Below are positions 21,321 through 40,823 of a stretch of DNA of 64,000 nucleotides, piece by piece (positions within the stretch are counted from its first letter, which is position 1; each line of letters begins with the position of its first letter). Origin of the DNA: Salisaeta longa DSM 21114 (GTDB taxonomy: Bacteria; Bacteroidota; Rhodothermia; Rhodothermales; Salinibacteraceae); NCBI RefSeq assembly GCF_000419585.1, contig NZ_ATTH01000001.1, positions 2,643,001 through 2,707,000 of the forward strand, read 5' to 3'. The notes under the pieces were generated by a model, which saw nothing but the letters and a program-made list of their open reading frames with translations, was not told the origin of the DNA and ran no database searches. Position numbers and translations under genes: made by a program.

Positions 21321-21326
21321 CGGCGG

Positions 21327-21416
21327 CGGAGGGGGAGGGATTCGAACCCCCGAGACCCGCGAGGGGCCTGCCGGTTTTCAAGACCGGTGCATTCAACCAG
21401 GCTCTGCCACCCCTCC
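21327..21416 (-). tRNA. tRNA-Ser(UGA)
   Basis: The reverse strand folds as a class II tRNA of ~90 nt. The acceptor arms are GGAGGGG and CCCCTCC with discriminator G. The anticodon stem is CCGGT/ACCGG around loop CTTGAAA, giving anticodon TGA. A long variable arm follows, then a T arm with loop TTCGAAT. No CCA is encoded (CCG follows). It reads UCA/UCG-type serine codons. It stands immediately left of the defence island, but its 5' end faces the island, so it is not in the usual orientation for integrase-mediated insertion. Confidence 0.93.
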
Positions 21417-21521: not shown

Positions 21522-24500
21522 TCACACATCGGTCGCCTGCGCTTGCATCGCTTCCAAGGTGCGATCAAACAAAAAGTCGAATAGCAGCCGGCCAAACGCG
21601 TCGTTGTCGACGATTTTCTTGTACAGCTTAAAGTTCTTGTCGATCATTTCCTGCAGCTCGTCTTCGGCTACGGCGTCAAACGTAAGCCGGGCGTCGCTCT
21701 CGCTGTTGACTTCGATGCTCTTGCGCACGGCGTCGCTACCCCGAACGTTGCGCTGTAATTGCTCGATAAAGATCCGATCGTCTTCGTCGAAGTCGTACCC
21801 GAATCGCTCGTTCAGCGCTTCCAAGATCCTCGATAGCGGCTCCTTCTCGGGCTCGGTCGCCGATGCTCGTCCGTCGGATTCTTTCTGTGGCGGAAGCGGC
21901 TTTTGCCCCTGCGGCAGCTCCATGCCACCGGTGTGCGCCTCCTGGATGCGGTACGAATCGATGTCGACGTACTGCAAGAGCTCCCGCGGAATATCGGACG
22001 GATCAAGGCGGGCGATTAGCTTCGACAGGAGCGGCTTCGCCAGCACGTACAGTTTCTCCAGTTCAACGTCTTCGAACGGCACCACCTGCGCAAGGAAGGC
22101 GTAGAGCCGGACGAACGTGCCGAGGTGCTGGCGAACGTCGTACTGTTCTTCTTCGGTCGCATGCTCGTATCGGTCAACGCAGCGATCCAGGACGCTGTGC
22201 AGCTGCTTCTGCGTGCCGGTGCCAGAAAACCAGATGCCGGCAAAGTCGTCCAGGTCCCGGTCGGTCACAATGCCGTGCTCCCGGATCTGATGCTCCAGGT
22301 CGTAGAGCAGCCCCGGATCCGTGCCCTCCTGCAGCGTCGTCCGCTCGTAGTACGGCTGGAATGCCTCGCGGATGGCCTCGGCCTCGTTGGCAAAATCCAG
22401 CACCATGGTTTCGTTCTTTTGCGGATGCGTTCGGTTGAGGCGGGAGAGCGTTTGTACCGCGTTGACGCCGCCAAGCTTCTTGTCAACATACATCGTGTGC
22501 AGCAGCGGCTGGTCGAAGCCGGTCTGGTATTTGTTGGCCACGATCAGGAATCGGTAGGCGTCGCGGTCGAACACGTGCCTCGTTTGGCTCTCGGAGAAGC
22601 CGTTCATTGAGCGCTCGGTATGCTCGATGCCCTTATCCTCAACCGTCCCCGAAAACGCGACAAGCGCCTTGTACGGATATCCTTCTTCCTGAAGGTAGCG
22701 GTCGAAGGCGACCTTGAAGCGGACGGCGTGCAGCCGGGAGCGGGTGACGATCATCGCCTTGGCCTGCCCGCCGATTCGGTGGGCGACCTTCTCGGCGAAG
22801 TGCTGCACCATGATCTCGGTTTTCTTGCCAATCGTGTGCTCGTGTCGGCTCACAAACGATTGCAGGAGGCGCGACGCCTTCTTCGAGTCGTACGCCGGAT
22901 CCTCGTCGATCTGCTTCAGCAGGTTCCAGTAGTCGGTGTACGTCGTGTAGTTCTGAAGGACGTCGAGGATAAACCCTTCGTCGATGGCCTGTCGCATCGA
23001 GTACAGATCGAACGGGGCATAGCTGCCGTCGGGCTGCTTATCGCCAAACAGCTCCAAGGTCTTGGATTTCGGTGTAGCGGTAAAGGCAAAGTTGCTCACG
23101 TTGGGCTGATGGCCGCGCTTCTGAATCTCGGCGGCAATCTTGTCTTCAAGGTCGCTGTCGGTTGCATCTTGCGCTTCTGCCGCTTCTAGCGAGGGCGCGG
23201 ATAGGGTATCGTTCAGGTGCTTCCGGTATTCGCCGGTTTGCGAGCTGTGGGCCTCGTCGATGATGACGGCGAACCGATGGCCCCTCCGCTTCCGAATCGC
23301 TTCCGCTACATGGGGAAACGTTTGCAGCGTGACGATGACGATGCGCTTGCCTTCTTTCAGCGCCTTCCCGAGTCCGCTGGCACCCTCCTTCACGTCGGCC
23401 ACGACGCCGCGCTCTTGTTCAAACTGGAGGATGACCTGCGCGATTTGCTTGTCGAGGACGCGGCGGTCGGTGACGACGATGACGGTGTCGAAGACGGACT
23501 GGTCGTCGGCGTCGTTGAGAAAGGCGAGCTGGTGTGCGAGAACCGCGATGGAAATGCTCTTTCCGCTGCCGGCCGAGTGCTGGATGAGGTAGCGCTGGCC
23601 GGCTCCGTTCGTTCGTGCATCCGCGACGAGGCGGCGAACGGAGCGCATCTGATGGTAGCGCGGGAAGATGAGGATTTTTTCTCCCGTCGGGGTGCCGTCG
23701 TCGTCGAGCCGATCGATGGTCGCAATGAAGTGCTGAATCAGGTTGAGGATGCTGTCGCGGGCCCATACGTGCATCCACAGATAGCTCGTGCGGGGCCCGC
23801 GTGCATTGGGCGGGTTGCCAGCGCCGCCGTCGTACCCCTGGTTGAACGGCAGGAAGTACGTATCGTCGCCGCGCAGGTGCGTCGTCATGTAGACCTCCTC
23901 GCTTCCGACGGCGAAGTGGGCGAGGCACCGGCCGAACTGAAAGAACGGCTCGCGCGGATCGCGGGCGCTGCGGTACTGATGAATCGCGTCGCGGTAGGTC
24001 TGCCCCGTCAGCGGATTTTTGAGCTCGGCCGTAAAAATCGGCAGGCCGTTCAGAAAGAGGCCCAGGTCGAGCGTGTGCTCCGAGTCGGTGCTGTACGGAA
24101 GCTGCCGCACAACCGTGAAGACGTTGGCGCGGTACTTCTCCTGCAGGTCCGGATTCCGCGCCGTAGACGGCTTGAAGTAGACGAGCTTGAAGCGGGCGCC
24201 GTGGATGCGGACGCCACGGCGCAGGACGTTCAGCGTCCCGCGCTTCTCGATCTCCTGATACACCTTCTGAACGAACCGATCCTTCGCGTCCGTCCCAAAC
24301 TGCTTCTTGAGCTTCTGCCACTCGCTGGGCTGTGTGGCGACAACGAAGTCGAACAGGTCGCCGGGAATCAGGCACCGCGCGCGGTTGTAGTCGGCTGGCG
24401 AGCGTTTGCGGTAGCCGCCCGGCGTGTAGCCGCCCACGTCGTAGGGCGCATCCGGCTCGGCCGAGGTGCCCTTCGCTTCGCTGACGAGGACCGATTCGAT

Positions 24501-24539
24501 GGCGGCTTCGAGATCCTTCTCGGAGGTGTCGACGGGCAT
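21522..24539 (-). CDS. hsdR: Type I restriction enzyme R subunit (nuclease/translocase)
   Basis: A 1,005-residue motor-nuclease that, with HsdM and HsdS, translocates and cuts unmethylated DNA. The N-terminal HSDR-N nuclease domain has the PD-(D/E)xK core (LDLGLFLNGLPIFTAELKN, around 155-175). Superfamily 2 helicase motifs follow: Walker A HSAGSGKS near 325, DEAHSSQTG near 435, FTATP, and the second RecA lobe with NKYQTGFDQP and LSRLNRTHPQK. The C-terminal helical region should contact HsdM. It appears intact. It is separated from hsdM/hsdS by the AbiE and TAC genes, but all run in the same direction. Confidence 0.93.
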   Translation of the reverse strand: MPVDTSEKDLEAAIESVLVSEAKGTSAEPDAPYDVGGYTPGGYRKRSPADYNRARCLIPGDLFDFVVATQPSEWQKLKKQFGTDAKDRFVQKVYQEIEKRGTLNVLRRGVRIHGARFKLVYFKPSTARNPDLQEKYRANVFTVVRQLPYSTDSEHTLDLGLFLNGLPIFTAELKNPLTGQTYRDAIHQYRSARDPREPFFQFGRCLAHFAVGSEEVYMTTHLRGDDTYFLPFNQGYDGGAGNPPNARGPRTSYLWMHVWARDSILNLIQHFIATIDRLDDDGTPTGEKILIFPRYHQMRSVRRLVADARTNGAGQRYLIQHSAGSGKSISIAVLAHQLAFLNDADDQSVFDTVIVVTDRRVLDKQIAQVILQFEQERGVVADVKEGASGLGKALKEGKRIVIVTLQTFPHVAEAIRKRRGHRFAVIIDEAHSSQTGEYRKHLNDTLSAPSLEAAEAQDATDSDLEDKIAAEIQKRGHQPNVSNFAFTATPKSKTLELFGDKQPDGSYAPFDLYSMRQAIDEGFILDVLQNYTTYTDYWNLLKQIDEDPAYDSKKASRLLQSFVSRHEHTIGKKTEIMVQHFAEKVAHRIGGQAKAMIVTRSRLHAVRFKVAFDRYLQEEGYPYKALVAFSGTVEDKGIEHTERSMNGFSESQTRHVFDRDAYRFLIVANKYQTGFDQPLLHTMYVDKKLGGVNAVQTLSRLNRTHPQKNETMVLDFANEAEAIREAFQPYYERTTLQEGTDPGLLYDLEHQIREHGIVTDRDLDDFAGIWFSGTGTQKQLHSVLDRCVDRYEHATEEEQYDVRQHLGTFVRLYAFLAQVVPFEDVELEKLYVLAKPLLSKLIARLDPSDIPRELLQYVDIDSYRIQEAHTGGMELPQGQKPLPPQKESDGRASATEPEKEPLSRILEALNERFGYDFDEDDRIFIEQLQRNVRGSDAVRKSIEVNSESDARLTFDAVAEDELQEMIDKNFKLYKKIVDNDAFGRLLFDFLFDRTLEAMQAQATDV

Positions 24540-24590: not shown

Positions 24591-25502
24591 TCAAGAACGG
24601 GGTTTCCAGGGGCCCTCTGGAGACCAGTGCTGGTTGAAGGGATCTCCAGTTCGAAGAGACGCAAGGGGGCGGTAGAGAAACCGTCGGATCTGGTCGATCA
24701 CAGGACGCAGATCTTCCTCGAATGCTTGCAGTCGTGTCCGCTTGCCAAACGCCTTCCACTGTGTCTGCTTACGATCGTCACGGGCAAAGTCCTCCGTGAG
24801 AGCACTTGGCGTACGTTCAGGGAGACCGGTAGCGCGGCACTCGAACGTTGCGTCGATGGCTTTGGTCAGAGTGGAACCGTCAAAGGCGAACGTTCGGCTC
24901 AGATACCAAACGTCGTAGAAGTCCTTCATGCGGCTATTGGCGATCCCGAAGACCACCATGCCATGAAGCTTTTCGGCGATGACGGTTTCTCGGGGATACG
25001 TGCGAAGCGTGGCCGCCGGGAAGTTGAGGAGCGTCGGAAACGTAGTCGTCTGTGGCGTTGGGTGAACCGCATCCCCGAAGCCCACGTCGATCTGGAGCGG
25101 AAGATGTGCGTTCCCCACGTATGCGTTAAGGGTCACGCGCACTCCACCGTACGTCTCCTGATCCCGGATGGCCGCAACCTCCACGCTGTCGGGATCGAAC
25201 GAAACGCCATCGTCAGGCACGTCCACCTGACACACCGCTTGGAAGATCGCTTCGAGTTGCGCCGGGTCGCCGTATCCAAGGAGATCGAGGTCTTTCGTGG
25301 GGCGGTGCAAGTCGTTCTGCCAAACGAGAAAGGCATACGCCCCCTTCAACACGAACTGATCCTCGACATCAGAGGCCCCGATGCGATACAGGAGCCGCTC
25401 CAAGGCAAAGCGCGTTAGGAGCGCCTGGTGGCTTTCTCCGCTCTCCCGCGAACGGTTGAGGAGCCGATCTCGAACCGATTGCGACACATTCGTTGGGCTC
25501 AT
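24591..25502 (-). CDS. AbiEii/AbiGii-family nucleotidyltransferase toxin
   Basis: A 303-residue toxin of the type IV AbiE toxin-antitoxin family, a nucleotidyltransferase fold that arrests growth during phage infection. The catalytic core is visible: FVLKGAYAFLVW (the G-containing motif I) followed by RPTKDLDLLG with the two metal-binding aspartates, and later VIAEKLHGMVVF and RMKDFYDVW, typical of the family. ATG 25502 lies inside the stop of the upstream antitoxin (4-base ATGA overlap). hsdR follows 51 bases downstream and may share the transcript. Confidence 0.88.
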   Translation of the reverse strand: MSPTNVSQSVRDRLLNRSRESGESHQALLTRFALERLLYRIGASDVEDQFVLKGAYAFLVWQNDLHRPTKDLDLLGYGDPAQLEAIFQAVCQVDVPDDGVSFDPDSVEVAAIRDQETYGGVRVTLNAYVGNAHLPLQIDVGFGDAVHPTPQTTTFPTLLNFPAATLRTYPRETVIAEKLHGMVVFGIANSRMKDFYDVWYLSRTFAFDGSTLTKAIDATFECRATGLPERTPSALTEDFARDDRKQTQWKAFGKRTRLQAFEEDLRPVIDQIRRFLYRPLASLRTGDPFNQHWSPEGPWKPRS

Positions 25503-26104
25503 GCCACAGCCTCCATGTACGGGCGGATCACGGTTTGCACTCGACAGACGTCGGCGTAGTGCCAGAGGGCATCCACAGAGCCACGGTTCTCGACGTACTC
25601 TCGGAGCGCTTCGATGGCGACATCGAGGCCGATCTTATTGCGAAACTTGAAGCAGTCGGCCACGGTCTTCGCTGGATTGTAGATCGGGACCGAAACGCCT
25701 TCGACGTCGTGTTCTGCGATGCCTTCGGTGCGGGCTGTGCCGGACATCCGCACGGTTCGGAGCGAGACGGCATCGACCGATGGCGCGCGGTCCTTGTGTC
25801 CGATGGCCATCCAGACGTCAAACGGGTTCTGCGTCGTCAGGTCGTGGAACTGCAGGGCAGACAGGAGGCAGATCGTTCCCTTCGGCACCCGCTTCGCTGC
25901 GACGGCGAGGGAGTGGTGGGCGGTGACGTCTTGTCCAGAGCGCTCGTAAAGCCCCCGGCCAATACGGATCAGTTCTCCGGCATCAACGAGCCGGGAGAGG
26001 TACTGCCGATGAATGCCACGCTCTTCGGCGTCCTGCGTGCGGAAGACGCCTGTCTCGTCGGCAAGATCGAGAAGCTGATCGCGTTTGGTTGTGGAAGCAG
26101 GCAT
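25499..26104 (-). CDS. AbiEi-family antitoxin / transcriptional repressor (copy 1)
   Basis: A 201-residue partner of the AbiEii toxin. The N-terminal winged helix (about 5-60: DLADETGVFRTQDAEERGI, LVDAGELIRIGRGLY) is the DNA-binding part that autoregulates such operons. The rest is the AbiEi antitoxin domain with ICLLSALQFHDL and YNPAKTVADCFKFR. AbiEi antitoxins do not bind the toxin directly (type IV behaviour). It is translationally coupled to the toxin by a 4-base overlap. An inverted repeat lies ~110 bases upstream. Confidence 0.88.
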   Translation of the reverse strand: MPASTTKRDQLLDLADETGVFRTQDAEERGIHRQYLSRLVDAGELIRIGRGLYERSGQDVTAHHSLAVAAKRVPKGTICLLSALQFHDLTTQNPFDVWMAIGHKDRAPSVDAVSLRTVRMSGTARTEGIAEHDVEGVSVPIYNPAKTVADCFKFRNKIGLDVAIEALREYVENRGSVDALWHYADVCRVQTVIRPYMEAVA

Positions 26105-26307: not shown

Positions 26308-26556
26308 TCAATCTGCTCCAGCTCTCAGCATATCGATGTCTCGCGTTGGACGCGTCAACGTCATGTTGTGCGCCTGAAGCATAAGCGCTCCTTTCAGGGT
26401 GAAGGCCGCCGCGTGTGCGGTCTGGCTGAACCGGTACAGAAACCGCTCCATCCCGTACCGTTGCAGGATGTCATTGAACGGACGTCCCTGCGCCCGCGCC
26501 GCATTTTTGAGACGCGTGTGCACGGAGTGCGCCATATTTGCTATGGATGAACTCAT
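26308..26556 (-). pseudogene. Truncated AbiEii toxin (copy 2), N-terminal 82 residues only
   Basis: The frame starts like an AbiEii toxin: HSVHTRLKNAARAQGR, ERFLYRFSQ, FTLKGALML and RPTRDIDML line up with the intact copy at 24591. It stops a few residues after the second metal-binding aspartate. Roughly 200 residues of the catalytic and C-terminal parts are missing, and no continuation is found in other frames before AbiEi copy 1. It is therefore a remnant without expected toxin activity. It follows AbiEi copy 2 by 33 bases, as expected for a decayed toxin-antitoxin pair. Confidence 0.8.
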
Positions 26557-26589
26557 GCCGCGTGGGTTGCCGAGAAGAGCTTCGGAGGA

Positions 26590-27201
26590 TTACATCAGGG
26601 CCTCAAGATAGGGCTGCATCACATTCGTCATATTGCACGTCTCCGCATGGCGATGCAGATCCTGGAGTGAACGGTCGGAACGCTGCAAATACCGTTTCAG
26701 AGCGTCCGTCGCTACGTCAACACCAATCGTTGAGCGAAACTTGAAGCCGTCGACAACGGCACGGGGGGCACTGTACATCGAGACATCGACGCCGCCAATC
26801 ACGTGCGTTTCGATGCCCGCGCTATAGGCCGGCTCCGAAACGTGAACCGTGTGGAGCGGGGGGTGGTCGAGGCGCGGCGCGTGGATGCCCCGCGGCAGCG
26901 CGATGTACACCGCGTGCGGAATCTCGTCGGTTAGATCGTGAACGTCGAACGCCGTGAGCAGCGTTACAACGGCTTTCGGCGCACGCTTCGCAACAATCAC
27001 CAGGTCATCGTAGCGCGTTGGTTCTGCTTCAGCCAAGCGGTATACCCCCCGGCTGACCTTATCGATGGCTCCGGCCTCTTCCAGGTGCCGGAGCGTGCGG
27101 GGATGCACGCCCCGTGCGCGAGCTTCTGAGGCCCGTAGCGTTCCGCCCGCCGCCCGGAATTCCCGTAGGGCGGACGCGATCGTTGAATCAGCAACGCTCA
27201 T
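26590..27201 (-). CDS. AbiEi-family antitoxin / repressor (copy 2), partner of a broken toxin
   Basis: A 203-residue protein with the same layout as copy 1: an N-terminal winged helix (LREFRAAGGTLRASEARARGV, LEEAGAIDKVSRGVYR) and a C-terminal AbiEi domain (AVVTLLTAFDVHDL, YSAPRAVVDGFKFRSTIGVDVA). It appears intact while its toxin is truncated, so it may survive as a DNA-binding regulator or as an anti-addiction module against related AbiE elements. It lies downstream of the SecB-like gene, with an inverted repeat just before its start. Confidence 0.85.
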   Translation of the reverse strand: MSVADSTIASALREFRAAGGTLRASEARARGVHPRTLRHLEEAGAIDKVSRGVYRLAEAEPTRYDDLVIVAKRAPKAVVTLLTAFDVHDLTDEIPHAVYIALPRGIHAPRLDHPPLHTVHVSEPAYSAGIETHVIGGVDVSMYSAPRAVVDGFKFRSTIGVDVATDALKRYLQRSDRSLQDLHRHAETCNMTNVMQPYLEALM

Positions 27202-27218
27202 TGATATTGGATGAAGAT

Positions 27219-27242
27219 GCTACACATGTCGTCAAGTGTAGC
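27219..27242. promoter_or_regulatory. Inverted repeat before AbiEi copy 2, candidate autoregulatory operator
   Basis: GCTACAC and GTGTAGC are separated by 10 bases, 18 bases upstream of the AbiEi copy 2 start and just after the SecB-like gene stop. A TTGACG-like -35 lies inside it on the minus strand. AbiEi family members repress through such repeats. Confidence 0.4.
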
Positions 27243-27250
27243 TTATTTGA

Positions 27251-27715
27251 TCAAGAAGGTTCCAAGGTCGACTCACGGTCGCCCCGCAGAAACTCCTCGA
27301 CAATCGGTTTGAAGGTAATACTTGGCAGCACCAGTCGGCGGCGGCTTGTGCTTGTCAGATCGGAGATGTGGACGCGTGCGATGCCAAACAGCATCGAGAG
27401 ACCGTTGACGAGAAGCAGACGCTCGGCATCATCACGCGCTGCAACTTCCTCATCGATCCAGGTCAGCCATCCTGTTACGCGGAGCCGCCCGCGGTGCATG
27501 ACATAGGGGCGCATGGCCTCGGGTAGTTCATCGTCCGCGTTGAAAGCAACCGTGAGGTGCACGCATCGAGCGTTGCGTTCCTTGTCGAATGTTGTTTCAA
27601 GCTCGATCCCAACGCCAACGCCAGCGTCTACGTCGTCGGGAATCGGTTCAGGATCAAGACGCTCGTACGTCAGGAGCTCCGACCGATAATCAAGAAGCTG
27701 GAGGGGAGCAATCAT
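27251..27715 (-). CDS. SecB-like chaperone of a toxin-antitoxin-chaperone (TAC) module
   Basis: A 154-residue protein with the SecB fold pattern. An N-terminal strand ends in YERLDPEP, acidic strands follow (GVGVGIELETTFD, VHLTVAFNAD), then RLRVTGWLTWID, a helix (ERLLLVNGLSMLFGIARVHISDLT), and the LPSITFKPIVEEFL end typical of SecB (LP.I.F..L). Phylum and context argue against a general export SecB: it lies 3 bases after a HigA-like antitoxin and its toxin. In known TAC systems such as HigBA-SecB of Mycobacterium, the chaperone protects an unstable antitoxin. Confidence 0.78.
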   Translation of the reverse strand: MIAPLQLLDYRSELLTYERLDPEPIPDDVDAGVGVGIELETTFDKERNARCVHLTVAFNADDELPEAMRPYVMHRGRLRVTGWLTWIDEEVAARDDAERLLLVNGLSMLFGIARVHISDLTSTSRRRLVLPSITFKPIVEEFLRGDRESTLEPS

Positions 27716-27718
27716 TGC

Positions 27719-28462
27719 TTAAGCCGCTTGGAGCTCTTCATCTTCTGTGGCCGTTTGTTCTTTGCGAATCAGATAGTCGGAGAACGTAACGGCTCGCGTA
27801 GCCGTGCCGCTCGTATCCTTACAGTACCCACCGTCGCTGGATGCCTGCACCTGCGGGACGAACGCCCCTTGCTTGTGCGTTGTGCTTGATCCATTTGCGC
27901 CATTGCCCGCTACGGCAAGCAAGCGTGTACCCAACGCCTCCTCGAACGCTGCAATCGTCTTCAGCGTGAAGTTGATGCCTCCCGCCAGGCCACGGCTGAC
28001 GTAGGCTTCGTCTCGATCCATCCTGCGCGCAAGTTCACGCTGCGACAGCTCATTGTCCGCTTCAATGATCTGGCCGATGCGAGCCGTCAGATCCGTCAGC
28101 AACCGATGCAGCTTCCGCTTCACCGGATCGATGTCAGCCAGCGCCTTCCGCTCCTTCGAAATGGTGCGCTTGCCCCCGCGACGGCGGCGTTTCTTCGGGC
28201 GCTTCACATTGGGCACGAAAACGATGTCTGCATCCAACGCCACAGCATAGCGCACTACCGTCTTCAGCGTCAGGTTGGTGCGACCGTTGAGGTGCGCGCT
28301 CACGGTTGATCCGCTGCGGTATCCAAGATCCTCGGCGAGGGCGCGTTGCGTCATGTTGCCCATTGCGTCGCGGATGCGTTCCGCAATCGCGTGGGTCAAG
28401 CGGGTGGCGCGCTTGTCGATGCGCGCTTCGGAGACAGCGAATGAAGGGTTCGAAGTCATCAT
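27719..28462 (-). CDS. HigA-like antitoxin with two helix-turn-helix domains and a chaperone-dependence tail
   Basis: A 247-residue DNA-binding protein. The first Xre-like HTH (about 22-85) includes TQRALAEDLGYRSGSTVSAHL. A basic linker RPKKRRRRGGKR follows, then a second HTH (about 125-185) with SQRELARRMDRDEAYVSRGL. Both end with the same phrase FTLKT/LTLKT, so the domain was probably duplicated. The last ~60 residues are polar with a small hydrophobic patch (TFSDYLIRK) and may be the chaperone-addiction segment seen in TAC antitoxins. It overlaps the toxin gene by 4 bases and the SecB-like gene follows after 3. Confidence 0.75.
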   Translation of the reverse strand: MMTSNPSFAVSEARIDKRATRLTHAIAERIRDAMGNMTQRALAEDLGYRSGSTVSAHLNGRTNLTLKTVVRYAVALDADIVFVPNVKRPKKRRRRGGKRTISKERKALADIDPVKRKLHRLLTDLTARIGQIIEADNELSQRELARRMDRDEAYVSRGLAGGINFTLKTIAAFEEALGTRLLAVAGNGANGSSTTHKQGAFVPQVQASSDGGYCKDTSGTATRAVTFSDYLIRKEQTATEDEELQAA

Positions 28463-29049
28463 GGGAGGTCGCGTGCTTCAAAGTGATGATTGCCTTCGAA
28501 GAAGTATTCGTCTTCAACGCATCCGTCGTCGAATGTGTACTCCTCAAAGTTGAGCGTGTCGGTCCACGTAATGCGCTCGTGGACCCGCTTCATTACGTAT
28601 CGGATGTCCTTCCAGGCGGCTGTCAGCACAGCGTCATCCTGGATGCGTGGATCTCGTTTGACGCCGCCGTTTCCGGCGACGAGGATTTTGCGCATCCGAA
28701 AGCAGTAGAGGCGTAGGCGCGGATACGGCTTCGGCAAGTGCTTTTTGTCTTTCGCCGGAATGCTTGCGCAGAGCGCCTCGGCATGAACGCCTTCTGGGTC
28801 GGTCGCGTTGCCCTCGTCTCGAAACCACCGGTCCGGTCCCTGAAAGCACTTGTAGTGATTGAAGTTATGCTCATCCAGCACCTCCTGGTACAGGCGCACC
28901 CTTAGGTTGTCGCAGTCGGGTGCCTTCTGCACAGCGTCCGTTGCCCAGAACCGCTCCAACTCCGTCTTTTCGGCACCAGCCTTCTGGAAAGAGTACAGCG
29001 TTGCGTAGTCTCCTTCATCTAGCAAGACAAGCTTGAATCCAAAGTCCAT
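28459..29049 (-). CDS. Probable HigB/RelE-type toxin of the TAC module
   Basis: A 196-residue protein, longer than usual HigB toxins (~100). The core phrase LRLYCFRMRKILVAGNGGVKRDPRIQDD resembles the beta-strand and GG.K.T region of RelE/HigB mRNA interferases. The remainder is a charged N-terminal half (PDCDNLRVRLYQEVLDEH) and an acidic C-terminus. It is the first gene of a three-gene unit with a HigA-like antitoxin (ATGA overlap) and a SecB-like chaperone, which supports the toxin role. A TTGACT-17-TACCTA promoter (29061-29089, minus) would give an almost leaderless mRNA. Fold assignment is moderate. Confidence 0.6.
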   Translation of the reverse strand: MDFGFKLVLLDEGDYATLYSFQKAGAEKTELERFWATDAVQKAPDCDNLRVRLYQEVLDEHNFNHYKCFQGPDRWFRDEGNATDPEGVHAEALCASIPAKDKKHLPKPYPRLRLYCFRMRKILVAGNGGVKRDPRIQDDAVLTAAWKDIRYVMKRVHERITWTDTLNFEEYTFDDGCVEDEYFFEGNHHFEARDLP

Positions 29050-29180
29050 TGGTACGGGGATAGGTAAGAGGCGATAGGCTAAAAGTCAAGAAATGTTTCG
29101 CTTACATGTCAAGTCAAGACGCAGAAGGGCACCAAAATTTGCCAGTATTCGGTTGTATTACAAGCCAGACCTGCTGCCTG

Positions 29181-30578
29181 TTATACCTGCCCCCGCACGT
29201 CAATCCGTCCCGTCACCGCCGCCGAAACGAGCGCCGTGCGGTACTCCTTCAGCCGGGCGATGCCGTCACGGATCTTGTCCACCAACGCGTCGATGCGCGC
29301 GGTCTCGCGGTCGAGGTACGTGGCGATGGCGCGCTGTTCGGCGAGGGGCGGGATGGGCCACCGGAGGTTCTGGATGAAGTCGTCAGACACCCGCTTCTGA
29401 CCTCCCGCTCCGTACATCGTCGATTCCCCCATTTTCCGGAAGGGGTGGGACATGGTCGTATAAAAGAGAAAACGGGCGTCAAGATTGTCTCCGGGCCGAA
29501 GCACGTGAAGCTCTGTTGTGCCGAAGCCAACTCCATTTTCGAGATCCCGTGCCAGAGCACCTTTCCCGTTTTCAAAGCACGGAGTAATCTTCGCGACGAG
29601 CACGTCCTGGTTTCGAAAGTAAGTGTACCCGCTAACAACGTCTTCCAGAGGTTTCGTTTCACTCAAATCCAAACCGCCGCCTTCCCCAACGGACTCCATC
29701 GGTACGAAAGACACCTCCGTCTCAGGGTCCCAGTCTTTGACCTCAGTCTTCGACGGCGACGTTTCCAGTAGAAATCGCAGCCGAGCAGTGGACCACGATT
29801 CTGGAATTTTCTCTAGCCACTCCACGCCCGAGTCCTGCATCTCCGCGTCGTCGTCCAGGCCCTTGGTGACGGCGTGACTGATGAGGGCAGTGCGCTTCTC
29901 CTCCAGCAGCTCGATCAGGCGCTGCTTCTTGTCGAGGAGGGCGTCGATGCGCGCGGTCTCGCGGTCGAGGTATGCGGCGATGGCGCGCTGCTCGGGGAGG
30001 GGCGGGACGGGCACTTCCGTATTCGCTATCCGGTCCTGCTCCAGGCTCTCTACTGTCGTCCCCGAATTCGTCCATTCGAGGAGGAGAACGTCATTCTTAC
30101 CGCGAATGAGGTATGCCAAAAACGCAGAGTCGAGGTCTTCGGCTGGTGTCATCGCCTTCAAGTCCTGGTTCAGAGCCACCTGAACCGAGTTAATCGCAAC
30201 TGGAATTGTATGCTTCAGAATGCCGGAGCGCACCACGATTAAGACGCTTCCAGGCTCTACCAAACTTGTAGAGCTCTCCTTTACTGCCTCCGGTGTGATG
30301 TGGTCTTGGGTATCCGTGATTCTGTCTGCCTTCATGTCCTTTGGGGAGACCCACGGAATGTCTCCTGACCAATACTCCTTGTTGTCCTTTGACGGCGTTC
30401 CTCCCCCCTTGAATGCCGACTGGAACTTGAGGCGAATTGTCTCCCAATGCTCCGGAATCTTCCCCAGCCAGTCCACGCCCGAATCTTTGTAGGCGTCGTA
30501 GCGGGGGAGAGGCGACACACGTGCGTCGGCGTTCGAGGCGGAGGGGCGGGCGATGTTGGGGGCGTTGCTTGCGCTCAT
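29181..30578 (-). CDS. hsdS: Type I restriction-modification specificity subunit
   Basis: A 465-residue subunit that chooses the DNA target for methylation and cleavage. Two half-subunits are plain: each starts with a similar phrase (KDSGVDWLGKIPEHW, then QDSGVEWLEKIPESW), has its own variable target-recognition domain, and ends in a conserved helix (PEQRAIAAYLDRETARIDAL and AEQRAIATYLDRETARIDAL). The target is therefore bipartite, but its sequence cannot be predicted. ATG 30578 is chosen over a start seven codons upstream. The two conserved helices are encoded by 67-base near-identical direct repeats. Confidence 0.93.
   Translation of the reverse strand: MSASNAPNIARPSASNADARVSPLPRYDAYKDSGVDWLGKIPEHWETIRLKFQSAFKGGGTPSKDNKEYWSGDIPWVSPKDMKADRITDTQDHITPEAVKESSTSLVEPGSVLIVVRSGILKHTIPVAINSVQVALNQDLKAMTPAEDLDSAFLAYLIRGKNDVLLLEWTNSGTTVESLEQDRIANTEVPVPPLPEQRAIAAYLDRETARIDALLDKKQRLIELLEEKRTALISHAVTKGLDDDAEMQDSGVEWLEKIPESWSTARLRFLLETSPSKTEVKDWDPETEVSFVPMESVGEGGGLDLSETKPLEDVVSGYTYFRNQDVLVAKITPCFENGKGALARDLENGVGFGTTELHVLRPGDNLDARFLFYTTMSHPFRKMGESTMYGAGGQKRVSDDFIQNLRWPIPPLAEQRAIATYLDRETARIDALVDKIRDGIARLKEYRTALVSAAVTGRIDVRGQV
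29287..29353. repeat. Direct repeat copy 1 within hsdS (encodes C-terminal conserved helix)
   Basis: This 67-base stretch matches 29941-30007 with about four mismatches and a spacing of 654 bases. It encodes the conserved PEQRAIA..LDRETARIDAL helix that follows each recognition domain. Recombination between the copies would remove or swap one recognition domain and keep the frame. Confidence 0.85.
29941..30007. repeat. Direct repeat copy 2 within hsdS (encodes central conserved helix)
   Basis: Partner of the 29287-29353 repeat, encoding the helix after the first recognition domain. The differences are silent or conservative, as expected for sequences kept similar by recombination or selection. 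Confidence 0.85.
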
Positions 30579-30609
30579 GCGGGATGAGGGGATGTGCAAT
30601 TGGGGGCGA

Positions 30610-31182
30610 CTACTTGTCTGAAGCTGTACGGTACGTTTGGTTAGGGCTGCGGGGCGCGTCGGGGCGGGTGCGCTCCAACCGACCGTCTTTCGTCATTGGA
30701 GCCAGATAACTACTGCTGATGTGAGATGGGTTTTTGTCAAGAAGTGCCGCCACCTCCGAAGATGAAAGAGCGCGCCATGCACACAATGCATGAATCACGT
30801 CTTCCAACCTCTCACGCGAGGTTCTTTGGCCTCGTACTTCAAGGATCATCTGCCTGAGTGCGTCCGGGAGGGGGCCCCCAGATACCAACGCATCCAGCTT
30901 TTGGGTTGCGTCTTTTGGCTTTTGGGTTTCCTCCTCAAGCTTTTGGGTTTCCTCCTCAAGCTTTGAGGATTGCTCGTCAGCTTGTGTGGTTTCTCTTTCA
31001 TCTTGGGTGGTTGCTTCGCCTCCAGCAGTCTGTTCGTTATCGAAAAGATCCGGCTGGACTTGACTTGGAGGGGCGAGCAATCGGTCGGTGGGTTCGTAGT
31101 AGGTTTGGTTACCTCCAGTAATCCGATCATCCTCACCTGTCTGTTTGAGCTCTTCAACCAGCGCACCAACGTCTATGCTCAT
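30610..31182 (-). CDS. Small winged-helix protein inside the hsd operon, with a heptapeptide repeat
   Basis: A 190-residue protein of unknown function. Residues 1-60 are polar. A repeated KLEEETQ stretch (three units, the last degenerate) forms a short coiled coil. The C-terminal ~80 residues look like a winged helix (MILEVRGQRTSRERLEDVIHAL, LSSSEVAALLDKNPSHISSSYL, TKDGRLERTRP). Its ATG overlaps the hsdM stop by 4 bases and hsdS follows after ~30, so it is co-expressed with the methyltransferase. A role in regulating the system or binding DNA is an inference. Confidence 0.7.
   Translation of the reverse strand: MSIDVGALVEELKQTGEDDRITGGNQTYYEPTDRLLAPPSQVQPDLFDNEQTAGGEATTQDERETTQADEQSSKLEEETQKLEEETQKPKDATQKLDALVSGGPLPDALRQMILEVRGQRTSRERLEDVIHALCAWRALSSSEVAALLDKNPSHISSSYLAPMTKDGRLERTRPDAPRSPNQTYRTASDK
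30898..30960. repeat. Three 21-base in-frame tandem repeats
   Basis: Two perfect 21-base units (30919-30939 and 30940-30960) are preceded by a degenerate third (30898-30918). Each encodes seven residues (KLEEETQ on the minus strand). Copy-number change would lengthen or shorten the coil of the winged-helix protein without breaking the frame. Confidence 0.85.
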
Positions 31183-33236
31183 GCTGTCACCTCCGTCAGC
31201 ATGTCCACGATGTCGCTTTCGATGGCGCGGATGTCCGCCTCGATCTCTGCGAGCGGGCGCGGCGGCTCGTATTCGTAGAAGTAGCGGTTGAAGTTGATCT
31301 CATAGCCAACGCGCCCGACGCGTCCGTCTTGCTCGTCGGTGTAGTCTTCGTCGATGTAGGCGTCGGGCACGTGCGGTTTTACCTCGCGCTCGAAATACGC
31401 AAACACGTCCTCGCTCAGCGGCACGTTTTCGTAGTCGCGCAGGTCGGTGTCGGATTCGAGGCGGCCCTTGGTGTCGCGGACCGGATCGGCGTCGGGGTCT
31501 TTCGCGGAGAGGGCATCGAGGATGTCGGTGCGCACGGGCTTCCGCACCTTGATGCCTTCGTCCTTGAGCCGCTGTTTCAGCCTGTCGCGGAAGTCGGCGT
31601 AGTTGGTGTGCTTCTCCGCTGGCATCGTCTTCAGAAGGGCCACGATCTGCTTTTGGGTGCGCTCGCCTTCGTCGATCGCCCGCTGCCGTGCCTCGGGGTC
31701 CTTCTTCTTGCTCTCGGCCAGGCGCTTGAAGTAGCGCTGCTCCCACACCTGCTCAATGCGCTCGTCGCTGGGCACGATGTTGAGGCGCAGCGGACGCTCG
31801 ACGCGGATCTTACGGTAGCCGAAGTCCTCGGTATTGAAGACGCGGACGCGGTCGTCGTTGTCGTCCATCGTGTTGTAGAGCGACAAGATCTCGGCCACTT
31901 GGTCCGGGTCGCCGTTCGCGCCCTCGCCGATGTAGCGGCGCTTGTCGCCGAGGCTTTTGCGCATCGGCTGCCACATGTCGGAAGCGTCGATGAGCTGCAC
32001 GGTGCCGCGACGCGCCGCCTCCTTCACGTTCGTGAGGACCCACACGTAGGTGGCGATGCCGGTGTTGTAGAACAGCTGCTCCGGAAGCTGGATGATCGCT
32101 TCAACCCAATCGTTTTCGAGCAGCCACCGGCGAATTTCGCTCTCGCCGCTTCCGGCATCCCCCGTGAAGAGGGGCGAGCCGTTCATGATAATCGAGATGC
32201 GCCCGCCGCCCTCGCTCGGCGGCTTCATGTGGGCGATCATATGCTGCAGAAAGAGCAGTTGCCCATCCGAGATGCGCGGCGTTCCGGCCTCGAAGCGCCC
32301 GGAGGCCCCGCGCTCCGCTTCATCCGTCACATCCTTCTTGTCACGCTTCCAGTCCTTACCGTACGGCGGATTGGCGAGCTGGAAGTCGAACCGCTGCCCG
32401 GCATGCTTGTCTTTTGAGAGCGTGGAGCCGAACGCGATCCGGTCGGCGTCGCGGCCATCCTCGGTCTTCAGGTAAAGATCCGACTTGCAGACCGCATACG
32501 TTTCGGGGTTCACCTCTTGTCCGTACAGGTAGATGTCGGCGTCAGCGTTCATCTCGAAGATGCGGTCGCGGGCCGCCGTCAGCATCCCGCCGGTCCCGCA
32601 GCACGGATCGCAGATCCGGAAGACGCGCCCGGCCTCGCCCAGCACATCGGTTTTGCCCGCCAGCACCAATTCGGTCATCAGGCGCACGACCTCGCGCGGC
32701 GTAAAGTGCTCCCCGGGATTCTCGTCCAGCGCCTCGTTGAACTTGCGGATCAGTTCCTCGAAGACGAGGCCCATCTGCTCGTTCGACACCGTATCCGGAT
32801 GCAGGTCGGCATTCTTGAACCGCTCCATGACCTGGAAGAGCAGCCCAGCCTGCGCCAGTTTGTCGATCGTATTGCGGAAGTCGAACTTGTCGATTACGTC
32901 CCGCATGTTTGGCGAGAAGCCTGCAATGTAGGCCTTCAGGTTGTCCGCGAGCTGCGCCGGATCCTCCTGCAGCAGCCGCTCGAAGGTGTAGTTCGACGTA
33001 TTGTAGAAAGCGTATCCGGCCTTCTTGCGGAGCAGGCCGTCCAGGTTATCCAGGTCGTCCTTGTAGGTGTGATACGCCTGCAGCACGTCCTCCTTTGTCG
33101 GTTGCAGCACGCTGTCAATGCGTCGAAGGACGGTGAAGGGCAGAATGACGTCCTGGTATTTGCCGCGCTTGAAGGAGTCGCGGATCAGGTTGGCGGTTCC
33201 CCAAAGAAAGGAGACGATCTCGTTGTGGGTCTGCAT
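31179..33236 (-). CDS. hsdM: Type I restriction-modification DNA methyltransferase subunit
   Basis: A 685-residue N6-adenine methyltransferase. The N-terminal HsdM-N helical domain begins MQTHNEIVSFLWGTANLIRD. The methylase core has SAM motif I DPCCGTGGML, followed by the catalytic NPPYGKDW. A long C-terminal charged region (about 480-685) is involved in HsdS binding in this family. The start at 33236 fits the conserved N-terminus; the longer frame adds 41 unrelated residues. It is the first gene of a minus-strand operon and is divergent from the Wadjet operon. Confidence 0.94.
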   Translation of the reverse strand: MQTHNEIVSFLWGTANLIRDSFKRGKYQDVILPFTVLRRIDSVLQPTKEDVLQAYHTYKDDLDNLDGLLRKKAGYAFYNTSNYTFERLLQEDPAQLADNLKAYIAGFSPNMRDVIDKFDFRNTIDKLAQAGLLFQVMERFKNADLHPDTVSNEQMGLVFEELIRKFNEALDENPGEHFTPREVVRLMTELVLAGKTDVLGEAGRVFRICDPCCGTGGMLTAARDRIFEMNADADIYLYGQEVNPETYAVCKSDLYLKTEDGRDADRIAFGSTLSKDKHAGQRFDFQLANPPYGKDWKRDKKDVTDEAERGASGRFEAGTPRISDGQLLFLQHMIAHMKPPSEGGGRISIIMNGSPLFTGDAGSGESEIRRWLLENDWVEAIIQLPEQLFYNTGIATYVWVLTNVKEAARRGTVQLIDASDMWQPMRKSLGDKRRYIGEGANGDPDQVAEILSLYNTMDDNDDRVRVFNTEDFGYRKIRVERPLRLNIVPSDERIEQVWEQRYFKRLAESKKKDPEARQRAIDEGERTQKQIVALLKTMPAEKHTNYADFRDRLKQRLKDEGIKVRKPVRTDILDALSAKDPDADPVRDTKGRLESDTDLRDYENVPLSEDVFAYFEREVKPHVPDAYIDEDYTDEQDGRVGRVGYEINFNRYFYEYEPPRPLAEIEADIRAIESDIVDMLTEVTA

Positions 33237-33625
33237 ACAGGGAGACGAGGGGGCATGAGACGAAGCGCAGCGGACGGCGTATAATGTACAATGCTTGTGG
33301 CGTAATACCAAGCGCCGAGGATCGTCATGCAGCCGTTCGTGAAGAGCTTCCAACGTCACAGTAGGCCCAACCCGCCGGTCGTTCTCTCATCTGCGAGAAA
33401 AGCCAATTTCGAGGGGAGGGCCGTGTCGAGTGGGTCGCGGTTCAGCCGGGTGGCTCCAACAGATTGTAGTTGATAGGGCAATAGGTGTCAACGGTCTTTG
33501 TCTTATTTCGTCTTACGCATCGTTGCATTTGTATTTCTTAACGCCAATGTTAAAAAAAATGGCAAGCGCTTCTTCTGTAGTCATCTTGTAGCGTACCCTA
33601 GCAACGTCGCAAGGCTTAACGTAGC
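33237..33625. other. Divergent intergenic region between hsdM and jetA
   Basis: This 389-base gap is AT-richer than the flanks and holds the hsdM promoter described separately. No open frame of note was found. I could not fix a convincing promoter for jetA in the plus direction; several weak TTG-like boxes lie at 33520-33590. A run of eight As is at ~33549. Confidence 0.6.
33463..33491 (-). promoter_or_regulatory. Consensus sigma70-type promoter upstream of hsdM
   Basis: Read on the minus strand: TTGACA (33486-33491), a 17-base spacer, TACAAT (33463-33468), a near-perfect consensus. It leaves a ~220-base leader before hsdM ATG 33236, which is long, so a second promoter nearer the gene is possible. 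Confidence 0.5.
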
Positions 33626-34888
33626 ATGACCCATCCGGACTTCAAAAATTTCCTGCGTCTGGCGCACGACTATCTTCACGTGCTACAAGCCGTGCATGAT
33701 GCGCCACACGGCATGCGAGAGGCCGACATTCGTGCACATGTACGCGATGAGCTTGCGGGAGCATCTGCGGCTCCTGCGCCCTCTTACGTTTTTCAGCAGT
33801 TGCGCACCCATCGGCTCATCCAGCCGCTGCCGGAGAAATCGGCCTTCTACGAGCTCACGCCGCTCATTCAGAAGCCCTTGCGCAACTTCCAGCATGAGCA
33901 ATCACTGATTACGCCCAAGGTGATTCGTGCGCACCTGGAGCAAATTGGCACGGACCGGAGCCGTCTCCTTCAGTGTGGTAAACAAGCGTCGCAAGAGGGG
34001 GCCAACCGAGCATTAGAACGGATCAACACTGAATTGGAAGAGATCCGCATGCGCTCCCAAACAAACCGTGAGGCTATTCTCCACCGGGTGACAACGTTGC
34101 GGGCGGCAACGTCTGATACGAGCATTCAGGAACGCTTCGCTGCCGTTCTGGAAATGATGGAGGACCATATTCGGCCGCTCGAGGAAATCGTTCGTACAAA
34201 TGGGCTTGCCGAAACGCACTTTGCACGCCTAAGAAAGACCCTTGAGCGCGTTCAGCGTGCATTTGATAGTGCACCTGCCGTACAACGCGAACTGAAATCT
34301 ACCAGCGCCCGCCTCCGTCGCGTACGCCGCGATGTTCTCCGTAATTTCGAGGCAGCCCGGAAAGAAGTGCTGCCCCTGTTCGATGAACAACGGCGCGATT
34401 CTATGCTTGTGCGTGGTGCGTCTCAGTTGCTGAAAACGGTGCATCATGAAGGTCCTGATGCGCTGCAGCTTCCCAAGCAAATCCGACTGCTTCGGTTCAA
34501 CATACGAACGGTCTTGGACGACGATGCCATGCGGGGTTTTCTCTTGGATATGCGCGCTTACACGCCCGCACCTCCCGCGCCGATTTCCCAACCGTCAGCC
34601 CATAATCTCCCAGTAGATGTTCCCAACCGCAACCACGTACTTGCACGCACGCGGCAATCCTCTCCCATTCACGACGTAATGGCTTGGCTTGTGCAGCGCT
34701 ACGCAGCGGCCCCCACGCGTCATCTCTTGGCTGCCTACCGGTATGTGCTAGAGGCTCCAGATCTGCACGTCTCTTTTCGTGGGCCGCCCCGCAGTTACAC
34801 GCACGGCGACTACGTGCTCACAGCCACCCCCGCCTGTGTTCGCGTAAACGCTTCTCCTAAAACGTCATCTTTCATTGCCTTGTCATGA
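33626..34888 (+). CDS. jetA: Wadjet subunit JetA (kleisin-like)
   Basis: A 420-residue largely helical protein, first gene of a four-gene Wadjet anti-plasmid operon. The N-terminal ~100 residues form a winged-helix-like unit (YVFQQLRTHRLIQPLPEKSAFYELT). A long coiled stretch (about 110-290) follows, then a C-terminal winged-helix-like region ending VRVNASPKTSSFIALS. This fits the kleisin-like subunit that links the SMC heads of JetC. The assignment rests mainly on gene order and on the strong JetC and JetD matches. It overlaps jetB by 4 bases (ATGA). Confidence 0.8.
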   Translation: MTHPDFKNFLRLAHDYLHVLQAVHDAPHGMREADIRAHVRDELAGASAAPAPSYVFQQLRTHRLIQPLPEKSAFYELTPLIQKPLRNFQHEQSLITPKVIRAHLEQIGTDRSRLLQCGKQASQEGANRALERINTELEEIRMRSQTNREAILHRVTTLRAATSDTSIQERFAAVLEMMEDHIRPLEEIVRTNGLAETHFARLRKTLERVQRAFDSAPAVQRELKSTSARLRRVRRDVLRNFEAARKEVLPLFDEQRRDSMLVRGASQLLKTVHHEGPDALQLPKQIRLLRFNIRTVLDDDAMRGFLLDMRAYTPAPPAPISQPSAHNLPVDVPNRNHVLARTRQSSPIHDVMAWLVQRYAAAPTRHLLAAYRYVLEAPDLHVSFRGPPRSYTHGDYVLTATPACVRVNASPKTSSFIALS

Positions 34889-35460
34889 CTGACCTTCCGC
34901 ATCTCTCCGAGATCTTCAGCCAACTTCGTCGAGGCTACCATTACACCCCTGCTGATGGAGAAGTCTTTCGGATCCTTTGGCAGCGGTTTGATGCGTACAA
35001 GGCGGCGTTTGAGGCATTTGGTATGGACCTGCGGAAGCACCGTGAACGCACGGTCTACCTTTTTGCTGGCTCCTCGCAAAATCCAGGCAAGAAAGCGCGA
35101 GCCATGGGATTGTTTGTGCTAGTTTTGGTCGAATGGATGAGCAACGAGTATCCGACGATCGTGCCGGACTTCTTCGACACCTGGTGGCACGTTGATGATC
35201 TTCCCCATCTTGCGTCCGAACGTTACGCCACGTACATGGAACAGGTGGGTGTGACGAATACCGCCGACCTTAATAGCGTCATCGGGTCGCTTACGAGGTA
35301 CGGCTTTGCCGAGACCCGCGCCGATGGGGCCTTTCAGTTTCGAACTGCAGCCCACCGCTTTCTGGATCTATGTATAGAGGCTGTTGAAATGACTCCAGAT
35401 GCGGAGCCCAATGAGACCGAACCTGACGGTCCTTCCGCTCCTCGCCCCCCCGATTCGTAA
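34885..35460 (+). CDS. jetB: Wadjet subunit JetB (KITE-like)
   Basis: A 191-residue protein of the size and position of JetB, which binds the kleisin-like JetA. The middle (RAMGLFVLVLVEWMSNEYPTI) and the region TADLNSVIGSLTRYGFAETRADGAFQFRTAAHRFLDL look like tandem winged helices, as in MukE-type KITE proteins. The final ~25 residues are acidic and proline-rich. Its start overlaps jetA and jetC begins 45 bases after it. Family assignment is from order, size and fold pattern. Confidence 0.8.
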   Translation: MTDLPHLSEIFSQLRRGYHYTPADGEVFRILWQRFDAYKAAFEAFGMDLRKHRERTVYLFAGSSQNPGKKARAMGLFVLVLVEWMSNEYPTIVPDFFDTWWHVDDLPHLASERYATYMEQVGVTNTADLNSVIGSLTRYGFAETRADGAFQFRTAAHRFLDLCIEAVEMTPDAEPNETEPDGPSAPRPPDS

Positions 35461-35505
35461 ACACCGGGCGTGCATGTTCGTCCCCTCCCCTTAATCCATT
35501 CACTT

Positions 35506-38289: not shown

Positions 38290-38328
38290 CATGCACTGCT
38301 CTTTTCTCCCAATCGATGATACCATGCG

Positions 38329-39195
38329 ATGGCCGATGGATTGCTCAAAACGTTAGCATCTTTGCTCGATGATGGTGCAGTGCCCTGGAGTGCCATAAGC
38401 CAAAAACAACGACGCGTGTTGCAGCCGTTACTGGATGCTAGCGTTCTTGCGCGTGAGCGCTCGGGCGCAGGAGAGCGGCTCATCGTGGAGAATCGAGAAG
38501 TGCTGCGGCGCTTTGCTGTACAAAGGTATCCCAGCGGACTTTCCGAGGCTATAGCAGCTGATCAGCATAGAGCGGCTTTGTCCCCTGTAGACGGCGTGCA
38601 GCATTTTCGGGATGCTAAGCGAGGGGCGCAACAGGCCGACGTACTGTTGATTCGGGGAGGTCCTGACAGTTCTATTCGGTGCGATGGCGTCGAGATACCT
38701 GTGGGCCAGTTGACGGCAACAGCGGGGGCGGCGGCGGTCGTGTTAACGACACATCGCCGTGTATCTGTTGAAGGCACCCTTGCGATTATTGAAAATCAAA
38801 CCGCCTTTCTGCACGCTGAGGATTTAGGCGTCACGTTTGACGTGGCGCTGTATGGCCGCGGACGCCTGTCGGGCCGCGTGATTGAATGGCTCGCAAGCCC
38901 TGCCATGCAACAAGCAGAGCTGCTCCACTGCCCCGATTACGACCCGGTGGGGGTGCAAGAATATCAAAAACTATGGGCGCGCTGCGGCTCGCGCGTCCAG
39001 TTGTATTGCCCTTCTGATCTGGAAGACCTGCTACAACGATACGGCAAGCGGTCCCTCTATCGTGACAATCGCGCACTTCTTTCTTCGATGGACGACGCAC
39101 CGCCAAGAGCAAAGACGGTCGCACATTTGCTAATGCACTACGGGTGCGGCCTGGAACAGGAAGTTCTGATCAAACAAGGCCGAGGGCAATGGTAA
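38329..39195 (+). CDS. jetD: Wadjet nuclease subunit JetD (Toprim fold)
   Basis: A 288-residue nuclease that cleaves the extruded plasmid in Wadjet. The Toprim metal-binding residues are visible: the glutamate in LAIIENQTAFLH (about 153) and the DxD in HCPDYDPVGVQEYQ (about 203-205). An N-terminal winged-helix-like part (about 15-70) precedes them. It is shorter than many type I JetD proteins (~380-400), so this may be a type II or III Wadjet; I did not assign the subtype. ATG 38329 lies 40 bases after jetC. Confidence 0.88.
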   Translation: MADGLLKTLASLLDDGAVPWSAISQKQRRVLQPLLDASVLARERSGAGERLIVENREVLRRFAVQRYPSGLSEAIAADQHRAALSPVDGVQHFRDAKRGAQQADVLLIRGGPDSSIRCDGVEIPVGQLTATAGAAAVVLTTHRRVSVEGTLAIIENQTAFLHAEDLGVTFDVALYGRGRLSGRVIEWLASPAMQQAELLHCPDYDPVGVQEYQKLWARCGSRVQLYCPSDLEDLLQRYGKRSLYRDNRALLSSMDDAPPRAKTVAHLLMHYGCGLEQEVLIKQGRGQW

Positions 39196-39323: not shown

Positions 39324-40412
39324 TTAACGGGTCTCCGATGCGCTTTTTTCCGACTGCCACGCCTTCCACTGATCGACAAGGACCGCTTTTGCATCACCGG
39401 CCAGTTCTTTGCCCTCGGTGCGCAGAATCTCCCAGCCCCTCGCAACGGATTCCACGATAGTGGCGCGCGTTTGGATTGGCAAAACCGTGCGGTGCGTCTC
39501 CTCTACCACTGTTGGAGCGGGCAATCCCTTGCGCGCCTCCTGCGGCAGCCAGCCCATCCCCGTTCGATACAACGTGGGAAAATAGAAAAATGTCGCCCCC
39601 ACCAGTGCGAGAATGACCGCCCACCGCACCACCCGCCGCACGGCGCGCACAACCATTCGGACCGTCTTGCTGATGCCCCTCCAAACAGCCCCCACAATGG
39701 ATTGCACCGTTTGGCGAATTGCTTGAAGCGCACGCCCCAAACGGCTGCTTACAGATCGTAGCGAAGCTCCTATACGCGTGCCAATGGACGGCCCCCGTGG
39801 GGCTGATGAAGGCTTTGGAGTCGACCTTGCCGTCGAAGCGGTGCTACGCTGCTGGATCTTCTGTTCAAGCTCTTTGATGTGGTTCTCCAAGTGCGCTACA
39901 GACGTAGACGAACGTGCTTCAGTACGTTCATCTTCTACTTTTGCCAAGCGGTCGCGGAGCAGCTCTAGCTCTTCGCGAACGGCCTCGTGGCTTCGTTCTT
40001 CCTTGGGATTGGGAAGCTGAAATGAGGATGGGCGAGATGCCTGCGGGTACAGGCGCTCATGGACCCAACGGGCTGCCGTCCATGCGTTACGCAGTTGGCG
40101 TTGCGCTCGCTGGTCGCTCCCTTCATTGTTGTGGCTTGCGTCGTTCCCCCGCATTCGGATCTGATGCATGCAGGTTACAATGGGCTCGGGCATGATGCCG
40201 GCTTCCTGCAACTTGACAAGCCGGTCATGCTGCGTCATTCCTTCTACTGCAAGGTTCTCAAACTGCATGAAGCGTTTGGTAAGCACCTCCCCGAAGGTGC
40301 GCAGCTCGCGCAGACAGGTGGTGGGGGAGCGATGCACGAGATCTTCGGCTATACGTGCCAGCTGGTAGAGATCCGGCTCTTGGTCTTCTAAAAAAGAAAA
40401 GGATGATGACAT
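39324..40412 (-). CDS. Membrane-anchored protein with an N-terminal DUF4145-like domain
   Basis: A 362-residue protein. Residues 1-120 (LYQLARIAEDLVHRSPTTCL, LRTFGEVLTKRF, ILP/IMPEPIV, IRMRGNDASH) match the DUF4145 helical domain that also forms the start of many HsdR and helicase proteins. Coiled-coil segments (130-190) follow, then a basic region, one transmembrane helix (about 270-292: WAVILALVGATFFYFP) and a ~65-residue C-terminal part. It is therefore a DUF4145 domain tethered to the membrane. It is convergent with jetD and separated from the operon to its right by a terminator. Function unknown; a defence role is an inference. Confidence 0.7.
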   Translation of the reverse strand: MSSSFSFLEDQEPDLYQLARIAEDLVHRSPTTCLRELRTFGEVLTKRFMQFENLAVEGMTQHDRLVKLQEAGIMPEPIVTCMHQIRMRGNDASHNNEGSDQRAQRQLRNAWTAARWVHERLYPQASRPSSFQLPNPKEERSHEAVREELELLRDRLAKVEDERTEARSSTSVAHLENHIKELEQKIQQRSTASTARSTPKPSSAPRGPSIGTRIGASLRSVSSRLGRALQAIRQTVQSIVGAVWRGISKTVRMVVRAVRRVVRWAVILALVGATFFYFPTLYRTGMGWLPQEARKGLPAPTVVEETHRTVLPIQTRATIVESVARGWEILRTEGKELAGDAKAVLVDQWKAWQSEKSASETR

Positions 40413-40800: not shown

Positions 40801-40823
40801 TCCCCCGCGCTTTGGCCGGGGGA
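40801..40823 (-). terminator. Probable terminator of the stator/cytoskeletal operon
   Basis: TCCCCC and GGGGGA arms (with one further G-C pair) enclose a ~10-base loop 5 bases after the MotA-like stop. On the minus strand the stem is followed by a pyrimidine tract (TTCTCTCTTG). Confidence 0.55.

Follow-up and report, generated by a model that had tools for sequence, protein, structure and literature searches.

The window analysed here, a stretch of 64,000 nucleotides from Salisaeta longa DSM 21114, carries a trio of genes within a Type I restriction-modification (RM) operon that is best read as a toxin-antitoxin-chaperone (TAC) module of the abortive-infection type, its expression probably being joined to that of the restriction genes. 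The module appears to be built on a toxin of the PDC-M64 family and to be cargo that probably shares a transcript with the Type I genes; it would bring about phage-triggered arrest and act as a second line of defence. We assign this reading a probability of roughly 0.6. On the minus strand, the genes occur in the order hsdM, a 190-aa ORF, hsdS, the trio, two AbiE cassettes and hsdR. Pfam and PADLOC matches and the coordinates indicate that hsdM, hsdS and hsdR are all intact and on the same strand. The features of the operon are as follows.

31179..33359, minus strand: hsdM (PF02384/PF12161)
30610..31182, minus strand: 190-aa ORF with a Fic-like C-terminal domain (PF21247, E 2e-7), overlapping hsdM by 4 nt
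29181..30599, minus strand: hsdS (PF01420, E 2.5e-28)
29050..29180, minus strand: 131-nt gap between hsdS and the toxin gene, with the direct repeat AAGTCAAGA at 29083 and 29111
28459..29049, minus strand: probable toxin of the PDC-M64 family, 196 aa (PADLOC PDLC04756, E 5e-12)
27719..28462, minus strand: antitoxin with two HTH domains and a 61-aa C-terminal tail, 247 aa (PF01381 and PDC-M64 antitoxin models)
27251..27715, minus strand: SecB-like dedicated chaperone, 154 aa (AF2 model, Foldseek and family profile)
26590..27201, minus strand: AbiEi antitoxin of AbiE cassette 1 (PADLOC AbiEi, E 6e-66)
26308..26556, minus strand: truncated AbiEii, 82 of ~300 aa (PADLOC AbiEii, E 3.5e-23, model positions 6-80/294)
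25499..26104, minus strand: AbiEi antitoxin of AbiE cassette 2 (PADLOC AbiEi, E 4e-89)
24591..25502, minus strand: intact AbiEii nucleotidyltransferase toxin of cassette 2 (PF08843, E 1.6e-45)
21522..24539, minus strand: hsdR (PF04313, PF18766, PF22679)

The three ORFs of the trio are free of internal stops, and the arrangement proposed in the initial annotation, in which the trio lies between hsdS and hsdR with a 4-nt overlap between toxin and antitoxin and a 3-nt gap between antitoxin and chaperone, is exact in the coordinates. A scan for sigma-70-type promoters lists a promoter-like site ahead of hsdM (33491-33463, 11/12 matches) and none in the 131 nt that precede the toxin gene, and a scan for terminator-like sites lists none on the minus strand between the genes of the operon. 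A single long transcript spanning the hsd genes and the trio is plausible. More speculatively, the direct repeat in the gap between hsdS and the toxin gene might serve as an operator. Another possible operator, in this case for AbiEi, is an imperfect inverted repeat (27214-27247; 15-nt arms, 80%) in the interval that separates AbiEi from the chaperone gene. AbiE cassette 1 (26308-27201, minus strand) has kept AbiEi and has an AbiEii cut to 82 aa, and the complete cassette 2 follows directly. The Fic-like ORF between hsdM and hsdS (30610-31182) contains a KLEEETQ repeat and has a low GC3 of 0.52; the hsdM-hsdS interval in the nearest hsd locus is only 111 nt.

The 154-aa protein has no direct match in Pfam, NCBIfam or PADLOC, even at E 1, so the case for its SecB identity is built on structure and on relatives. 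Its AlphaFold (AF2) model (pLDDT 84.9) has, like SecB, four strands and then two long helices, separated by short helical turns. When this model is compared with the PDB by using Foldseek, the top 17 matches are all SecB, and the SecB matches include the Mycobacterium tuberculosis TAC chaperone Rv1957 in complex with a chaperone-addiction (ChAD) peptide (5mtw). A six-member profile made from the protein and its relatives finds Haemophilus influenzae SecB in the PDB (E 5e-4). Relatives that occupy the equivalent position give Pfam SecB matches at 1.6e-9 and 9.7e-7, and relatives of this kind also match the CmdC model PD-T4-9_C. The SecB-like fold that had been proposed for this protein is thus borne out.

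The Pfam SecB model (PF02556) has no match in the S. longa genome, and so no housekeeping SecB is detectable by Pfam. Because of this, a phage would be expected to target the dedicated chaperone and not a housekeeping SecB. Matches to PF02556 occur in only 4 of 198 sampled genomes of the phylum; three are chaperones at PDC-M64 loci, and the fourth is part of a CmdTAC-like set that adjoins an MmeI-type restriction gene. In this sample, therefore, SecB that is detectable with PF02556 is a TAC component and not a housekeeping protein. No match to the window chaperone was found in plasmids by using tblastn.

The toxin matches a model of the PADLOC candidate PDC-M64 (PDLC04756, E 5e-12), and it has no family match in Pfam or NCBIfam, no recognizable HigB/RelE domain in these collections, no match in the PDB by sequence profile and no match to the CmdT model PD-T4-9_A. 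Foldseek comparison of its AF2 model (pLDDT 76.9) with the PDB gives nothing significant, and HigB is among the weak matches (6af4_G, TM 0.49 by target; 8a0x). In a profile comparison with Gp49/HigB, the toxin core LRLYC...LLI.G.GG.K aligns to the strand-strand-K motif of HigB with a score of 27.8, which is higher than that of all 200 column-shuffled controls (maximum 21.9); unrelated profile pairs score no higher than their own column shuffles. The initial annotation called this protein a RelE/HigB-like toxin. The weak HigB-like core lies above the shuffles, and the family that is matched is PDC-M64 and not a Pfam or NCBIfam toxin family. Judged by sequence profiles, RelE/HigB likeness may be retained as a supported lead, but as a weak core similarity and not an identification. 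The protein sits on a long branch of the toxin tree and is at most 33% identical to the others. A scan of the genome collection with this toxin alone gave no match, a scan with close Chlorobiaceae toxins gave matches in Chlorobiaceae only, and tblastn of the toxin against plasmids gave none.

The antitoxin matches PF01381 in two stretches and the PDC-M64 antitoxin models in two stretches (best PDLC04760, E 2.6e-23). It was initially described as HigA-like; it is instead a double-HTH protein with no HigA classification. In an alignment, the relatives that were compared appear to have a single HTH domain. The C-terminal tail (61 aa, 4 aromatics) resembles a ChAD tail and is a putative ChAD. In published TAC systems, this tail confers dependence on the chaperone, and W108 and Y114 of HigA1 contact the chaperone (PMC5105189, PMC6377645).

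A correlation between chaperone and tail extends across PDC-M64 loci, is new and is directly testable. Antitoxin tails have 3-10 F/W/Y residues where a chaperone gene is present (n=26) and 0-2 where it is absent (n=10), although the threshold of 3 aromatics was picked after the data were viewed, the tails of chaperone-less antitoxins are also shorter, and the comparison leaves out six chaperone-bearing loci because the end of the HTH was not located automatically. The separation is still complete after clustering. All five independent contrasts on supported branches of the tree agree in pairing the chaperone with an aromatic-rich tail, for which a sign test gives 0.0625, the minimum attainable with five contrasts. 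The repeated absence of the chaperone, accompanied by a short or aromatic-poor tail, offers a natural experiment on chaperone addiction.

Of 395 genomes of the phylum, 56 contain a match to the PDC-M64 toxin model; the 14 control genomes contain none. One genome of the same family contains an intact trio of toxin, HTH and SecB-like genes that immediately follows a Type III mod-res pair (L004/L035), and the same gene order is found at other PDC-M64 loci, making the TAC arrangement a recurrent one. Because the trio is intact in this relative and in many other genomes, it represents more than a chance assembly. The third gene at most PDC-M64 loci is SecB-like, being either of the kind in the window or PDC-M64C, whose likeness to SecB is marginal (hhalign score 18.28, versus 18.09 for the best shuffle). 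The third gene of the window has no match to PDC-M64C (PDLC04763), and another SecB type is in its place. No chaperone is detected at 10 of the 42 loci compared. On the toxin tree, the presence or absence of a chaperone requires nine changes and the kind of chaperone three. In the papers searched, PDC-M64 has no functional description, and the reading of this candidate as a family of TAC modules found time and again within RM and BREX operons is new.

TAC-type modules of the PDC-M64 family recur beside hsd and other restriction genes, and PDC-M64 modules are found repeatedly just downstream of Type I, Type II and Type III restriction genes and of BREX genes. A PF02384 methylase lies within 10 kb of at least 10 of 52 toxin loci, whereas 2.1 are expected from genome densities (P ~2e-5; P ~9e-4 without the window and one near-duplicate), and this enrichment of RM genes may reflect the clustering of genes into defence islands. 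At 9 of the 44 other PDC-M64 loci, the upstream neighbour, 50-180 nt away and in the same orientation, is an RM or BREX gene, as follows.

L037, L052 and L072 (L072 weakly scored): hsdR
L061: hsdM
L035: Type III res
L065: Type III mod
L044: Type IIG
L063: BrxL
L070: BrxC/PglY

Two further loci were observed. In L077 (9118-10003), hsdS and hsdR flank a toxin-antitoxin pair that is accompanied by a pentapeptide-repeat protein and has no SecB-profile match adjacent; its toxin bears an LRLYAIK...GGAIK motif and has no PADLOC match at 1e-5. In L121 (885-2136), a CmdTAC-like set matching PD-T4-9_A and PD-T4-9_C lies beside an MmeI TRD gene, and is a second kind of TAC near restriction genes.

The trio can be compared with several known systems. 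Its toxin and antitoxin match the models of PDC-M64, a candidate in PADLOC-DB 2.0, and the gene order is that of other M64 loci, but the third gene is a SecB of the CmdC/Rv1957 type with no PDC-M64C match, and the antitoxin has two HTH domains. The HigBA-SecB TAC systems (Rv1955-Rv1956-Rv1957, and HigBAC of Escherichia coli C496) have the same order of toxin, HTH antitoxin and SecB-like chaperone, and they share the antitoxin tail and the SecB fold, which matches 5mtw. In contrast, the window toxin is only remotely similar to HigB/Gp49, with no Pfam match, and the trio lies inside an hsd operon. CmdTAC (PD-T4-9) likewise has a SecB-like chaperone, and chaperones of the window's relatives match its PD-T4-9_C model, whereas the window toxin does not match CmdT. 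The DarTG2 pair in the RptR island, a Type I RM locus, is also located between hsdS and hsdR (PMC12255303), but its toxin is different and it has no chaperone.

In CmdTAC, the T4 capsid protein pulls the chaperone away, leaving the antitoxin to be degraded and the toxin free to act (PMC11618068). A lambda tail protein acts likewise in HigBAC, according to PMC11980606. By analogy, the same logic is the best explanation for the window trio, for which we infer chaperone dependence, toxicity, a phage trigger, co-transcription and a defence role. While the cell is healthy, the SecB-like chaperone would bind the aromatic tail of the double-HTH antitoxin, aid its folding and shield it from proteolysis, and the antitoxin would block the toxin and probably repress the module. 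A phage protein that occupies the chaperone would cause the antitoxin to be lost and the toxin to be freed. The toxin, probably an RNase or another translation inhibitor, would then halt the cell before phage progeny form, and so the module could serve as a second line where restriction fails. TAC modules have recently been shown to sense phage structural proteins via the chaperone. An unstudied TAC family that recurs right behind restriction or BREX genes would represent a testable form of layered immunity within one operon, and the PDC-M64 candidate gains a concrete proposed mechanism. A broader proposal, which we regard as tentative and somewhat doubtful, is that PDC-M64 is a TAC family specialized for RM and BREX operons: once restriction is evaded, the dedicated SecB would be titrated by a structural protein of the phage, and the cell would be arrested. 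On this view, the one toxin family has recruited two different SecB-type chaperones, each with antitoxin tails to match.

The rival with real weight, which might well be correct even if we do not favour it, accepts the same TAC mechanism and differs only in the coupling to restriction: the hsdS-hsdR junction would be an insertion hotspot for defence cassettes, and the trio a working TAC whose position is functionally unlinked to restriction. The module is missing from the nearest hsd locus found, whose HsdR is 70% identical and whose hsdS-hsdR interval is 57 nt, versus 4641 nt in the window. Because of this, the trio is considered to be cargo in a variable site. Other loci of this hsdR clade have varied, unrelated genes at the junction, the AbiE cassettes of the window occupy the same gap, and the site has been called a potential hotspot, with DarTG2 embedded there in E. 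coli (PMC12255303). However, a hotspot specific to hsd would not explain why Type III, Type IIG and BREX genes are likewise followed by PDC-M64 modules in the same orientation. The status of the trio as cargo also weakens the idea, put forward in the initial annotation, that the cell becomes addicted to the hsd locus through the TAC, the toxin being released once the locus is lost. This idea draws on the general post-segregational logic of toxin-antitoxin systems and on the location of the trio within the locus, and we consider it unlikely. Related hsd loci persist without the trio, and cargo at a variable site fits at least as well; moreover, many PDC-M64 loci are not near hsd, those without a detected chaperone also argue against it, and tests of a Phd/Doc-like pair that resides in the tvr hsd locus of pneumococcus revealed no evidence for addiction (PMC6265443).

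Two other explanations concern the trio itself. Its two HTH domains, its position upstream of hsdR and the direct repeats in the 131-nt leader would suit a double-HTH antitoxin that mainly controls transcription of AbiE and hsdR downstream, so that restriction is held back until methylation is in place. This is improbable, because autoregulation through an HTH is usual for antitoxins and such control would need neither a toxin nor a chaperone. Slightly less probable still is a degraded or non-functional module retained by chance, as the truncation of the adjoining AbiEii copy and the divergence of the toxin might suggest, since the three ORFs are intact, have conserved motifs and are tightly spaced.

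The trio lies within a wider defence island, across which GC drops from 0.63-0.72 to 0.54-0.62. A tRNA-Ser (TGA) gene is found directly past the end of hsdR (21325-21416, minus strand), and together with the drop in GC it likely marks the island boundary. Divergent from hsdM, positions 33626-39195 (plus strand) encode a 420-aa ORF, a 191-aa ORF, a 939-aa SMC/MukB-like ATPase with weak LmuB/JetC matches and a 288-aa JetD-like protein, a set that looks like a divergent Wadjet/Lamassu-like system. Farther along, positions 39324-52197 (minus strand) encode a ZorB-like MotB/OmpA protein (E 1.8e-27) and a ZorA-like MotA protein (E 1e-8), as well as a 1234-aa Hsp70/actin-like ORF, a 576-aa tubulin-like ORF and what may be a VWA-type protein. 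These last three, labelled by eye, have no PADLOC match. This cluster is possibly an undescribed Zorya-like system.
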